From positions 1,085-26,464 of IMG/VR virus record IMGVR_UViG_3300030419_003148: DNA of 25,380 nucleotides. One strand, 5' to 3'. The translations under genes were made by a program, and so were the position numbers. Below, piece after piece: positions 13,711 to 21,425 of the stretch. Source of the stretch: a virus. The notes beneath the pieces were generated by a model that saw only the letters and a program-made list of their open reading frames with translations, did not search any database and was not told the DNA's origin. Each line of letters begins with the position of its first letter. The first letter of the stretch is position 1.

Positions 13711-14135
13711 GGGTTTGAGAACCACTTTTTTGCCGACAGTTCGACAGCAGATTATTTTCAACAGTTGCTCTCAGTAATGCAGGATATTAAGAGTTTAAGT
13801 AGAAGGATATGTAGAGTGCATTATAAAGTGCATTAATATGTCATTATAAGGTACAATAATTGTAGTTATCGTACCTTATCCAAGTAAGTTATTGATATAT
13901 AAGGATAACATTACATAAATTACTTCCTATAAGAATTAATTATCGGAACTAAATCAATATATAGTGCTTAACATCGGTCATAAGCATTGAAATGAAACGT
14001 AATTTTGCTAATTATAACATCCACATATCCGAATACTTTTTTTTTTGACCCCCACCCCCCAATTTTTCCGAACACTTTAACATCCATATAGTGCCCACCG
14101 ACATACCATAATAGCAGAAAAAAGGGGGTATAACA
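13711..14135. other. Repeat-rich intergenic region before the late module
   Basis: No gene is seen. In order it holds: tandem AGTGCATTA at 13815-13823 and 13827-13835; a hairpin with arms ATAAGGTAC (13846-13854) and GTACCTTAT (13871-13879) plus an inner ATAA/TTAT stem; a TCGGTCATAA element (13974-13983) in a GCTTA/TAAGC hairpin (13966-13985); direct repeats TAACATCCA (14015, 14078) and CCGAAYACTTT (14029, 14068); and between them ten T residues followed by GACCCCCACCCCCC (14037-14060). The region could hold an origin, a packaging site or regulatory sites. Confidence 0.7.
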
Positions 14136-14164
14136 TTGAAAAGTATACAGTTATATATTATATT
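14136..14164 (+). promoter_or_regulatory. Putative late promoter
   Basis: TTGAAA and TATATT are separated by exactly 17 bases, close to the sigma-70 consensus. Transcription would start near 14171, giving a 5' leader of about 50 bases before the Hsp20 start codon, which contains two hairpins. Confidence 0.6.
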
Positions 14165-14174
14165 AAAATCAGTT

Positions 14175-14219
14175 TCCCCGCTCATTGTGAGGGGGAGTAA
14201 CCTTGCTAATACAGGAGGT
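14175..14219 (+). promoter_or_regulatory. ROSE-like RNA thermometer in the Hsp20 leader
   Basis: Two hairpins fill the leader. The first (14175-14196) is TCCCC-G-CTCA/TGAG-GGGGA with one bulged G. In the second (14200-14219), ACCTTGCT pairs with the ribosome binding site AGGAGGT across a five-base loop. UUGCU (14203-14207) faces AGGA (14213-14216) with the G bulged. This U(U/C)GCU-opposite-AGGA arrangement is the hallmark of ROSE thermometers, which control bacterial small heat-shock genes. The leader is shorter than most known ROSE elements. Confidence 0.68.
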
Positions 14220-14223
14220 AAAC

Positions 14224-14631
14224 ATGATTAGCACTGGCATGACAAGATTCACACCGAATCTTATGAAACAAATGTTGGTCGGATTTGATGATTTTTTTGA
14301 TGGCATTGATAGCTATCAGCATTATCCGCCCTACAATCTCGTTAAGAGTGATGACGATAACTACAAGATTGAGATGGCACTAGCCGGCTTCAAGAAGGAG
14401 GATATCAACATCACCCTCGATAACAGCACTCTTATCATAGAAGGTAAGAATAAAGTGGAGGATGAGCAATACATTCACAGGGGTTTGGCATCACGCCAAT
14501 TCAAGAGAATGTGGACTCTCGACAAGCACATGGAAATTAATGACGCTCAGATGAATGACGGCATTCTATGTGTGAAGATAAAGAGAAATCTTCCAGAGGA
14601 AATGAGACCTAAAAAAATAAAAATTAAATAA
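14224..14631 (+). CDS. Hsp20 small heat-shock chaperone
   Basis: A 135-residue small heat-shock protein (alpha-crystallin domain about residues 38-125), which binds unfolding proteins without ATP. Visible features are MALAGFKKEDINITLDNSTL near the start of the domain, IEGKN, HRGLASRQFKRMW, the DGILCVKI segment carrying the family G-x-L motif, and a C-terminal IKI that fits the I-x-I oligomerisation motif. The ATG follows AGGAGGTAAAC; a TTG seven codons earlier was rejected. It is the first gene after the late promoter and directly precedes the large terminase, so it probably assists virion assembly or stress survival during infection. Confidence 0.93.
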   Translation: MISTGMTRFTPNLMKQMLVGFDDFFDGIDSYQHYPPYNLVKSDDDNYKIEMALAGFKKEDINITLDNSTLIIEGKNKVEDEQYIHRGLASRQFKRMWTLDKHMEINDAQMNDGILCVKIKRNLPEEMRPKKIKIK

Positions 14632-16104
14632 ATGCATATACCAGAGAGCACCGAAGCGAAAATCGCCAAGTTGCAGCAACTGGTACAGCAGGTACAAGAA
14701 ATAGAGAAACGCTCGGAAGCGAAAAATTCGCTTCTGGGCTATGCTCGATTCCAGATGGAGGGCTACAAGACCCCACCGCATATAAAGCTCCTAGCAGAGA
14801 AACTAGAGGCTGTGGAGAGGGGGGATATACGCCGATTAGCAATATTTATGCCACCGAGGCACGGAAAGTCTATTCTGACTTCAGAATTCTTTCCCGCTTG
14901 GTACATGGGGAGGAACCCCGATAAGTTCATTATTTGTTCCACCTACGCACAGGATTTAGCCGATGACTTTGGTCGTAAGGTGAGAAATCAATTGCAGGGC
15001 AAGGACTACGAGGATTTATTTCCCGATGCTCACTTATCAACCGACTCAGCGAGTGTGAGACGATTTCACACAAGCAAGGGAGGGGTATACTTTGCGGTTG
15101 GTGCGGGCTCAGCCATTACAGGTAGAGGTGCACATTTACTGCTTATTGATGACCCCATTAAAGGCAGGGAAGAGGCGGACTCGCAGGCAATGCGAAAGAA
15201 CCTCCTCGACTGGTACAGGTCAACAGCTTATACAAGATTAATGCCTAATGCCTCTGTTATTCTCATACAGACACGATGGCACGAGGATGACTTAGCGGGT
15301 TGGATTTTAAAGGAGACGGGACACGAAGGTTGGGATATTGTTGAATTCCCCGCTATTCTAAATAACACCGCCGCCGAAATGCTTGGATTGAAGGAGGGAG
15401 ACCCCCTATGGGAGGAATCCTATCCTATAGAGCGATTACAGGAAATAAAGAAAACAATTGGCACCAGAGAGTGGACATCACTCTACAACCAGACACCATC
15501 CACCGAGGAGGGCAACCTCATCAAGCGTTGGTGGTGGAAGACATGGAAAAAGGAACAATTGCCGAACATTGAATACAAGATTCAGTCTTGGGATACAGCG
15601 TATACTGTAAACGAGACATCAGATTACTCTGCGTGTACAACGTGGGGTGTCTTTAGTGGCGAGGGTGGATACAATCTCATTCTCTTGGATTCCATGAGGG
15701 AGAGGCTAACATTCCCCGAACTCAAGAATGCAGCCATACATCTCTACAATGAACATCAACCAGACTTGGTTATGGTAGAGGCAAAAGCGAGTGGGTTATC
15801 ACTCGTACAGGAGTTAATGCGTACGGGATTACCGATAACGCCATTTAACCCACGAAAGATGGATAAACTAGCACGGGTACACTCGGTTGCACCCCTGTTT
15901 GAGAGTGGCAGAATTTGGGCACCCGACACCGATGAAACGGAAGCGGTGGTATCCCAGTGTGCGGCTTTTCCAAACACAAAACACGATGATTTAGTTGACT
16001 CGGCTACGCAAGCTCTGATAAGACTGCGTAAGGGTTGGATGATTAATCATCCGCAGGATGCACCATTTGAGGAACCCACAGGCCCGAAAGGAAGTTACTG
16101 GTGA
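14632..16104 (+). CDS. terL: Terminase large subunit
   Basis: A 490-residue packaging motor. The ATPase domain has Walker A PPRHGKS (74-80, K79), GRGAHLLLIDDP with Walker B (169-174), and an ILIQTRWHEDDLAGW segment (about 210-224). The nuclease domain shows QSWDTAY with an acidic residue (about 317), LVMVEAKASG (about 379-388), and TKHDDLVDSATQAL near the end. It translocates DNA into the prohead and cuts it. The start follows the Hsp20 stop with no gap and no strong ribosome binding site, so translation is probably coupled. Its base composition appears more GC-rich than that of the accessory genes. Confidence 0.97.
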   Translation: MHIPESTEAKIAKLQQLVQQVQEIEKRSEAKNSLLGYARFQMEGYKTPPHIKLLAEKLEAVERGDIRRLAIFMPPRHGKSILTSEFFPAWYMGRNPDKFIICSTYAQDLADDFGRKVRNQLQGKDYEDLFPDAHLSTDSASVRRFHTSKGGVYFAVGAGSAITGRGAHLLLIDDPIKGREEADSQAMRKNLLDWYRSTAYTRLMPNASVILIQTRWHEDDLAGWILKETGHEGWDIVEFPAILNNTAAEMLGLKEGDPLWEESYPIERLQEIKKTIGTREWTSLYNQTPSTEEGNLIKRWWWKTWKKEQLPNIEYKIQSWDTAYTVNETSDYSACTTWGVFSGEGGYNLILLDSMRERLTFPELKNAAIHLYNEHQPDLVMVEAKASGLSLVQELMRTGLPITPFNPRKMDKLARVHSVAPLFESGRIWAPDTDETEAVVSQCAAFPNTKHDDLVDSATQALIRLRKGWMINHPQDAPFEEPTGPKGSYW

Positions 16105-20875: not shown

Positions 20876-21070
20876 GTGGAAATAATAAAATTTATTAAGC
20901 ACGTTTCAACAAAGGTTGATAAAGAAATTACCGACCGCAAGGATGCCTTTGCAATGGGTAAAATAGAAGATAATAATTTTAAAAAAGTTGTCGGCGAATT
21001 AAGGGGTTTGCAAATCGCAAGAGATTTGATAAGAGAATCCTCAAAACACATTGAGGAAGACGATGAGTAG
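20876..21070 (+). CDS. Hypothetical small helical protein before GroES
   Basis: A 64-residue helical protein starting at GTG (EIIKFIKHVSTKVDKEITDR). The pattern KDAFAMGKIEDNNFKKVVGELRGLQIARDLI resembles short proteins near the head genes of marine podophages; none has an established function that I know. It overlaps GroES by 8 bases, and AGGAAG within its end is the GroES ribosome binding site. Confidence 0.68.
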   Translation: MEIIKFIKHVSTKVDKEITDRKDAFAMGKIEDNNFKKVVGELRGLQIARDLIRESSKHIEEDDE

Positions 21071-21425
21071 CACAACTTTTAAATTAGAAGAAGTAGAATT
21101 AAAGAATGATAAATATCCAAAGCCAACAGGTCACAGGATATTAATTAAGACACTAGATGTCGCAAACAAAACAAATATGGGTATATATTTACCAAGCAAG
21201 TCTGTGGAAGACCACAGAGCAATTGCCTCAATAGGTAAAGTTATTGAATTAGGCAATGATGCATATAACAGGGATGATATGTCTGCCCCTTGGTGTAATG
21301 TAGGAGACTATGTTATGTTTGGTAAGTATGCAGGACACAGGTTTAAATTCGGTCAAGCGGAATTACGCATAATGAACGATGACGAAATTCTGGGAGTAGT
21401 CCCAGATGTGAGTGAAATAAGTTAA
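21063..21425 (+). CDS. groES: GroES-like co-chaperonin
   Basis: A 120-residue Cpn10-fold protein that would cap GroEL. Matches run through KPTGHRILIK, TNMGIYLPSK (the mobile loop, with IYL in place of the IVL of bacterial GroES), IGKVIELGNDAY, APWCNVGDYVMFGKYAGHRF and LRIMNDDEILGVV. It is longer than bacterial GroES (about 97), with an extended insertion around AYNRDDMSAPWC. The ATG follows GAGGAAG; a TTG four codons earlier overlaps that site. Like T4 gp31, it probably works with host GroEL to fold the capsid protein, consistent with its place just before the scaffold and capsid genes. Confidence 0.95.
   Translation: MSSTTFKLEEVELKNDKYPKPTGHRILIKTLDVANKTNMGIYLPSKSVEDHRAIASIGKVIELGNDAYNRDDMSAPWCNVGDYVMFGKYAGHRFKFGQAELRIMNDDEILGVVPDVSEIS

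Follow-up and report, generated by a model that had tools for sequence, protein, structure and literature searches.

A candidate ROSE-type RNA thermometer precedes IbpA-type hsp20 genes in many phages

Introduction

The leaders of ibpA and ibpB in E. coli are established ROSE thermometers. ROSE-like thermometers are defined by an anti-Shine-Dalgarno (anti-SD) motif, U(U/C)GCU (PMC3669281, PMC11342760); the ibpA-type thermometer of gammaproteobacteria is the family ROSE_2 (RF01832), and the Pseudomonas ibpA leader is a short ROSE-like thermometer of two hairpins (PMC3669281). E. coli IbpA represses its own translation via the thermometer leader, for which R93 is required, Y34 must be aromatic, and R97/K98 must be basic (PMC10474464). 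The RNA thermometers known from phages, about three in number, are those of lambda cIII, SPbeta blyA (fourU), and Caudoviricetes sigma70 (fourU) (PMC4166951, PMC11182007). In cyanophages, hsp20 is counted as a core gene (PMC3037559), and the cyanophage small heat-shock protein papers (PMC5028025, PMC3827213) make no mention of a thermometer.

We analyzed 25,380 nucleotides of viral DNA (hereafter the window; IMG/VR record IMGVR_UViG_3300030419_003148, positions 1,085 to 26,464), in which an initial annotation had described a ROSE-like leader before a phage hsp20 gene. Our search of the open-access literature returned no prior account of a phage ROSE element; the elements described here appear to extend ROSE to a broad range of phages in which it had not been reported.

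Results

Anatomy of the window leader

The open reading frame at 14224-14631 encodes Hsp20 (Pfam HSP20, 1.2e-18; phrog_432, 4.9e-41), and the leader sits before this small heat-shock gene, as ROSE-like thermometers do. Positions 14171-14223 hold two hairpins, followed by the hsp20 start codon at 14224. The features are as follows.

14136..14164, + strand: promoter-like site TTGAAA-17-TATATT (10/12 consensus matches; unverified)
14174..14197, + strand: hairpin 1, UUCCCC[G]CUCA-UUG-UGAG-GGGGAG (base-by-base check, conservation, covariation)
14180, + strand: bulged G of hairpin 1 (geometric search)
14200..14219, + strand: hairpin 2, ROSE-type, ACCUU[G]CU-AAUAC-AGGAGGU (base-by-base check, relatives)
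14203..14207, + strand: anti-SD U(U/C)GCU motif, UUGCU in the window, with G14205 bulged
14204..14210, + strand: 5' arm of a competing hairpin, UGCUAAU (ViennaRNA)
14213..14219, + strand: Shine-Dalgarno (SD) sequence AGGAGGU (sequence inspection)
14224..14631, + strand: hsp20, IbpA-type small heat-shock protein, 135 aa (Pfam, PHROG)
14227..14233, + strand: 3' arm of the competing hairpin, AUUAGCA, in hsp20 codons 2-4 (ViennaRNA, relatives)
14632..16104, + strand: terL, terminase large subunit, without SD (start abuts the hsp20 stop, TAAATG)

A base-by-base check agrees with the two hairpins annotated initially, the last with UUGCU facing AGGA and G14205 bulged. In this 3'-proximal hairpin, UUGCU (14203-14207) lies opposite AGGA (14213-14216); the outer pairs are A14200-U14219, C14201-G14218, C14202-G14217, U14203-A14216, and U14204.G14215, the inner part consists of the unpaired G14205 (a bulge predicted from sequence), C14206-G14214, and U14207-A14213, and the loop is AAUAC (14208-14212), giving seven pairs and a five-base loop. 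The 5' arm of hairpin 1 comprises UUCCCC (14174-14179), the bulged G14180, which adds to the earlier description, and CUCA (14181-14184); the loop is UUG, and the 3' arm comprises UGAG (14188-14191) and GGGGAG (14192-14197). On inspection, the window leader has two hairpins and L041/L042 have three, both within the two to four of ROSE-like leaders.

The promoter proposed for the leader fared less well: TTGAAA-17-TATATT is present, but sites of this kind occur at chance frequency (6 vs. 4.7 +/- 2.0 in shuffled DNA), and inspection of the near-identical relatives L001/L012 showed that its spacing is not preserved. Further upstream of hsp20, the segment 14038-14060 consists of a T run and then GACCCCCACCCCCC; the region 13711-14200, which contains this run, has no long ORFs on the coding strand.

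Occurrence of the element in phage leaders

Leaders were gathered by Hsp20 and terminase searches of IMG/VR and GenBank phages, which yielded 187 phage hsp20 leaders (112 distinct in their last 60 bases). The pattern [CU][CU]GCU is present 2-14 bases upstream of AGGA in 177 of the 187. Among distinct leaders with an AGGA site, U(U/C)GCU faces AGGA in 106 of 107, and the motif is found in 19 of 490 other ORFs of the same contigs and in 3.7% of shuffles; two of these 19 control ORFs (L223, L232) bear the same element, before a small gene heading an hsp20 operon. The 107 leaders cover T4-like cyanophages, pelagiphage HTVC115P, the marine lineage of the window, and lake phages. Inspection revealed both hairpins in ten further isolates (S-PM2, S-SM1, S-SSM7, S-TIM4, S-CRM01, Syn10, ACG-2014f, MED4-213, Methylophilales phage Melnitz-3, and Pseudomonas phage PA5oct). 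Models R1 and R2 were built from unaltered phage leaders only, with the lineage of the window excluded, and R2 scores nine of the ten isolates, the exception being PA5oct.

Gene-agnostic scans placed hsp20 immediately downstream in 90/120 and 90/120 cases, and a whole-genome R2 search of 16 phage genomes returned an hsp20-operon leader as the top match in 15 (E <= 1.1e-4), G008 being the only genome without a significant match. The element is placed nearly exclusively before hsp20 operons and is carried by most of the hsp20-bearing cyanophages sampled. It is widespread in phages and not peculiar to the phage of the window, which goes beyond what had been annotated. A DNA similarity search of GenBank phages with the window leader gave no match.

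In some phages, the same leader stands before an extra small gene, encoding a rubredoxin-like protein, a phasin-like protein, or a 30-aa membrane peptide (L480:143-289, L493:2281-2430, L223:1248-1487, L232:1239-1454, L479, L521, L556, and L456). In the contigs whose following gene was read (L480, L493, L521, L456, L223, and L232), that gene proved to be hsp20, and the element thus appears to stand at the front of an operon. In one cyanophage hsp20 leader (L143:1504), hairpin 1 is retained and the UYGCU segment is gone; this natural loss might serve as a control. In the IMG/VR contig L472 (minus strand, start 2470), a ROSE-like leader, AACUCGCUUAACAAGGAG, and an upstream bulged-G hairpin precede ahpC, with an apparent ahpF next, and ROSE control of a peroxiredoxin is possible there. 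Furthermore, L365:2058(-), L391:4556(+), and L427:2272(+) share a conserved long hairpin of the ROSE type, AAUAACCUU[G]CUUAAUAGGAGGUUAUU; the gene that follows encodes a 94-aa, possibly virion, protein, and no Hsp20 was found directly downstream.

Conservation, covariation, and helix strength

A geometric search located the bulged G in hairpin 2 of 114 of 121 leaders and in hairpin 1 of 109 of 121. The stem of hairpin 1 is replaced wholesale between lineages (UGUC/GACA, CCAAC/GUUGG, GUUGU/ACAAC, GGAUA/UAUCC, GAGAU/AUCUC, CCCGU/ACGGG, and UUCCCC/GGGGAG), and the bulged G is kept. In an alignment of 56 distinct leaders, six of the seven pairs of helix 1 change on both sides. Whole-structure covariation of this helix is 0.441 (shuffles: 0.102 +/- 0.012; slid controls: 0.04-0.07), a figure that leans upward because we fitted this alignment to the structure and its sequences share ancestry, although the contrast is still large; cells altered on both sides number 121 vs. 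37.6 +/- 5.2. A check independent of the helix 1 alignment, in which leaders were selected by the hairpin 2 pattern alone, found a bulged-G hairpin 1 upstream in 94% of 165 distinct hsp20 leaders vs. 6.2% of dinucleotide shuffles. Hairpin 2 is nearly invariant in sequence, as expected given that one strand is the ribosome site, and covariation therefore gives no support to the majority of its pairs.

The strength of hairpin 2 also follows a pattern. Leaders with the UU form of the anti-SD, in which a U.G wobble lies beside the bulge, have an extra outer pair in 19 of 19 cases (A-U, C-G, or U-A, depending on lineage), compared with 4 of 56 leaders with the UC form, in which the corresponding pair is C-G. 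Because the outer pair tracks the wobble form, helix strength seems to be kept within a range, as a switch requires. The energy needed to open the SD at 20 °C is likewise high and confined to a narrow range, with a median of 4.9 kcal/mol (quartiles 3.8-5.5) in the leaders and 2.6 kcal/mol (1.1-4.3) in control genes (p = 9e-10).

DNA identity between the window and L014 is 87% in the leader, 68% in the CDS, and 59% upstream (the shuffled level, measured against L003, is 57%), so in this comparison the leader is more conserved than the hsp20 CDS downstream of it. Relative to L003, hairpin 1 differs by the loss of one C and one G, on opposite arms, with pairing retained. A check of relatives for a stem lost or broken without compensation did not refute the ROSE-like reading of the initial annotation: the added outer pair accompanies the wobble form, and hairpin 1 compensates around its bulged G. 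The relatives strongly support this reading.

Match to ROSE families and kinship with bacterial leaders

Comparison of window positions 14100-14300 with all 4,227 Rfam families returned ROSE_2 as the top family, matched end to end (E = 0.023), but the score of 20.9 bits is a pointer and not proof, the curated cut-off being 65 bits; no family was found in the window at Rfam gathering thresholds. In a scan of 18 loci, ROSE_3 fell, below threshold, exactly on the leaders of one betaproteobacterial relative and of two phages, pelagiphage contig L207 and cyanophage P-RSM1.

The covariance model R2 finds the E. coli leaders of ibpB (22.2 bits, E = 1.8e-4) and ibpA (14.9 bits, E = 0.016) in a small target set, and it also detects leaders of alpha- and betaproteobacterial hsp20 genes. 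A simple motif scan marked 69 of 79 bacterial relatives, including SAR11. The relation of the phage element to the E. coli ibpA and ibpB leaders is, like its anatomy, its placement, and its conservation with covariation, a direct observation. On the window leader itself, neither R1 nor R2 gave a significant match (R2: 2.9 bits), which we attribute to the divergent linker and loops of this copy. The candidate membership of the window leader in ROSE is based on the motif, the ROSE_2 match, and L003/L014; on the comparative evidence, we place the element in the ROSE group as a member carried by phages. Assignment of the window leader to ROSE-G was rejected because its motif is UUGCU and its SD strand pairs without a bulge, and a fourU thermometer was rejected because it has UUGCU and no U4 against the SD.

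Predicted folding and a competing hairpin

In ViennaRNA predictions, the ROSE hairpin of the window is dominant only for transcripts ending by 14229. The competing hairpin, 14204-14210/14227-14233, has a probability of 0.77-0.99 when the transcript ends at 14232 and of 0.93-1.00 from 14235 on (15-37 °C), where the ROSE hairpin falls to <=0.01. The fold expected from the annotation is thus favored up to 14229, but codons 2-4 shift the prediction to the competing hairpin. With 30 coding bases added, the ROSE core exceeds a probability of 0.5 in about half of the phage leaders. For the proven E. coli ibpA leader, the same calculation gave an SD release of 0.0009 at 20 °C and 0.0017 at 42 °C; because this leader barely melts in ViennaRNA, such calculations neither support nor refute function, and we did not use melting curves as evidence of heat sensing since a proven thermometer fails the same test.

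Complementarity between the anti-SD and the first codons is also found in L003, L014, partly L257/L044, and L222/L243/L370, the codons differing by lineage. UU-type leaders have greater complementarity to their own CDS than to swapped CDSs (10.11 vs. 9.74, sd 0.14; 1/200), and this excess was absent among UC-type leaders in the same comparison. The complementarity may be coincidental, or it may act as an additional lock or as a switch during transcription.

The Hsp20 protein and neighboring genes

The Hsp20 of the window has the YPPYN motif and R91, the Arg equivalent to R93 of IbpA. The 129 distinct phage Hsp20s are IbpA-like. YPPYN, which includes the Tyr equivalent to Y34, occurs in all 129; a pattern search recognized the Arg equivalent to R93 in 125 of them, and visual inspection added at least three of the remaining four. 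R97 is present in most of the 129, and the K98 position is not basic in most. In the Hsp20 tree, the window groups with pelagiphage sequences (support 99/94), and about four phage/bacterial label changes are required, which indicates that the gene and its element moved more than once. Within the terL lineage of the window, hsp20 is carried by some phages and missing from others, so the leader and hsp20 behave as a cargo cassette.

The two genes hsp20 and terL adjoin at a TAAATG or TAATG junction, and coupled control of terL had been suggested for the window. This suggestion was not upheld: terL starts mostly have no SD even in relatives without hsp20, so terL need not be coupled to hsp20. Among the head genes of the window lies a gene for a GroES-like co-chaperonin (21051-21425; Pfam Cpn10, 1.3e-15), so the phage carries two chaperone genes. 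In another phage contig, a tRNA gene lies downstream of hsp20 (L246:3076-3147; Rfam 61.3 bits).

Discussion

Proposed mechanism

We interpret the leader as a cis-acting RNA of the ROSE type, carried along with an IbpA-type hsp20, whose bulged-G helix represses the gene until warming, a reading to which we assign a probability of roughly 0.74. U(U/C)GCU would pair with the SD in a helix weakened by the bulged G, so that few ribosomes start on hsp20; warming would loosen the helix, expose AGGAGGU, and allow the chaperone to be made, with hairpin 1 serving as a stable companion conserved in structure. Both the translational repression and its relief by heat are proposed by analogy with bacterial thermometers. 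In addition, the conserved IbpA arginine suggests that Hsp20, when free, might attach to the leader and hold back its own production, in which case protein aggregation in the infected cell would also induce the gene. The chaperone output of the phage may therefore be gated by temperature or by protein stress. A pure heat switch is ecologically puzzling because temperature swings in the open ocean are small, and for ocean phages the sensing of protein load may matter more than heat. An extended version, which we consider unlikely, makes ROSE a joint gate for temperature and proteostasis: the anti-SD would be bistable, pairing with the SD or, in UU-type leaders, with codons 2-4, Hsp20 would close the gate, and assembly load would be the usual trigger.

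Alternative explanations

The element could instead be chiefly a binding site for Hsp20, temperature being secondary: free Hsp20 would block translation until misfolded protein made during infection titrates it away and lifts the block. The near-universal residues of the IbpA type (the Tyr at Y34 in all 129 phage proteins, the Arg at R93 in nearly all, R97 in most) are consistent with such a sensor, as are a bulged G in hairpin 1 that stays while the stem around it turns over, as expected of a shape recognized by a protein, and operons in which a phasin-like or rubredoxin gene comes first and hsp20 second, which fits operon feedback. However, the K98 position is non-basic in most of these proteins, and R93 is common to all alpha and gamma IbpAs, so the presence of the arginine does not show RNA binding; we regard the sensor as possible but doubtful. 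A different structure might also do the work in the phage of the window, with UGCUAAU/AUUAGCA acting as a clamp whose loop and lower stem would enclose the SD and the start codon, and with the ROSE pairing reduced to a co-transcriptional intermediate or a remnant. ViennaRNA strongly prefers this pairing in longer transcripts, different codons supply the same kind of complementarity in L003, L014, L257/L044, and L222/L243/L370, and UU-type leaders match their own CDS better than swapped ones. The effect is, however, small, post hoc, and missing in UC-type leaders, nearest-neighbor folding also misjudges the proven ibpA leader, and the conservation of the anti-SD length, of the bulged G, and of the compensating outer pair is what pairing with the SD predicts. 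We consider the clamp quite unlikely to be the working structure.

That the conserved CUYGCU block is a DNA signal, such as a host PhoB site, and not an RNA element has one published point in its favor. The anti-SD segment of the hsp20 leader of cyanophage S-PM2 (L339), ATTCAAACTCGCTTAAATA, figures in a 2024 study of this phage as a putative Pho box for hsp20 (PMC10976474). In the same study, the S-PM2 fragment gave no PhoB binding by EMSA, on which ground we reject the Pho-box reading, and hsp20 was not induced by low phosphate (PMC10976474). Moreover, the block is in register with the SD and pairs with it, and phages whose hosts are unrelated share the same block with alpha- and betaproteobacteria, so that a DNA signal is highly improbable; the RNA element accounts for the Pho-box prediction, which failed experimentally. 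Many of the loci are near-copies and any AGGAGG can meet a partial complement nearby, so common ancestry together with chance complementarity to the SD might produce a functionless motif. Against this stand the low background of the motif (3.7% of shuffles and about 4% of control genes), a leader conserved above its CDS, the covariation of the helix, and a conservation that reaches E. coli ibpB, and we find chance scarcely credible.

Significance

One RNA element is kept before hsp20 in cyanophages, pelagiphages, freshwater phages, and a Pseudomonas jumbo phage. Should the element function as its bacterial counterparts do, temperature or protein stress would control, at the level of translation, how much chaperone these very abundant viruses obtain. 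This bears on infection under changing sea temperature and offers a test of function for a core phage gene. Because the element would need no host protein to work, a regulatory RNA of host type could pass between hosts as different as proteobacteria and cyanobacteria.

Comparison with known systems

The phage element most resembles ROSE_2 (RF01832) and the Pseudomonas ibpA leader (PMC3669281), with which it shares two hairpins, U(U/C)GCU facing the SD with a bulged G in the 3' hairpin, one base left unpaired on the 5' side of hairpin 1, and a position directly before an IbpA-type hsp20. It differs from them in being phage-borne, in the unrelated sequence of hairpin 1, in a linker of only 2-3 bases in the window, and in an Rfam score below the cut-off. 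ROSE_3 (RF02523) is the best Rfam match, in the right place, for the betaproteobacterial relative and the two phage leaders, although below the gathering score, and it is not the best match of the window. ROSE-G (PMC12857270) likewise has a bulged G in the anti-SD strand, but it has CUGCU and a second, opposed bulged G, whereas in phages the motif is UUGCU or UCGCU with only one bulge. The likeness to E. coli IbpA autorepression (PMC10474464) lies in a small heat-shock protein of the same type, its key arginine, and a ROSE leader; in E. coli the leader is bound via R93, whereas RNA binding by phage Hsp20 is putative. The lambda cIII, SPbeta blyA, and sigma70 leaders are temperature-responsive and lie in phage genomes, as proposed for the present element, but they neither belong to the ROSE type nor precede a chaperone gene, and no report describes any of them as widespread across phage groups.
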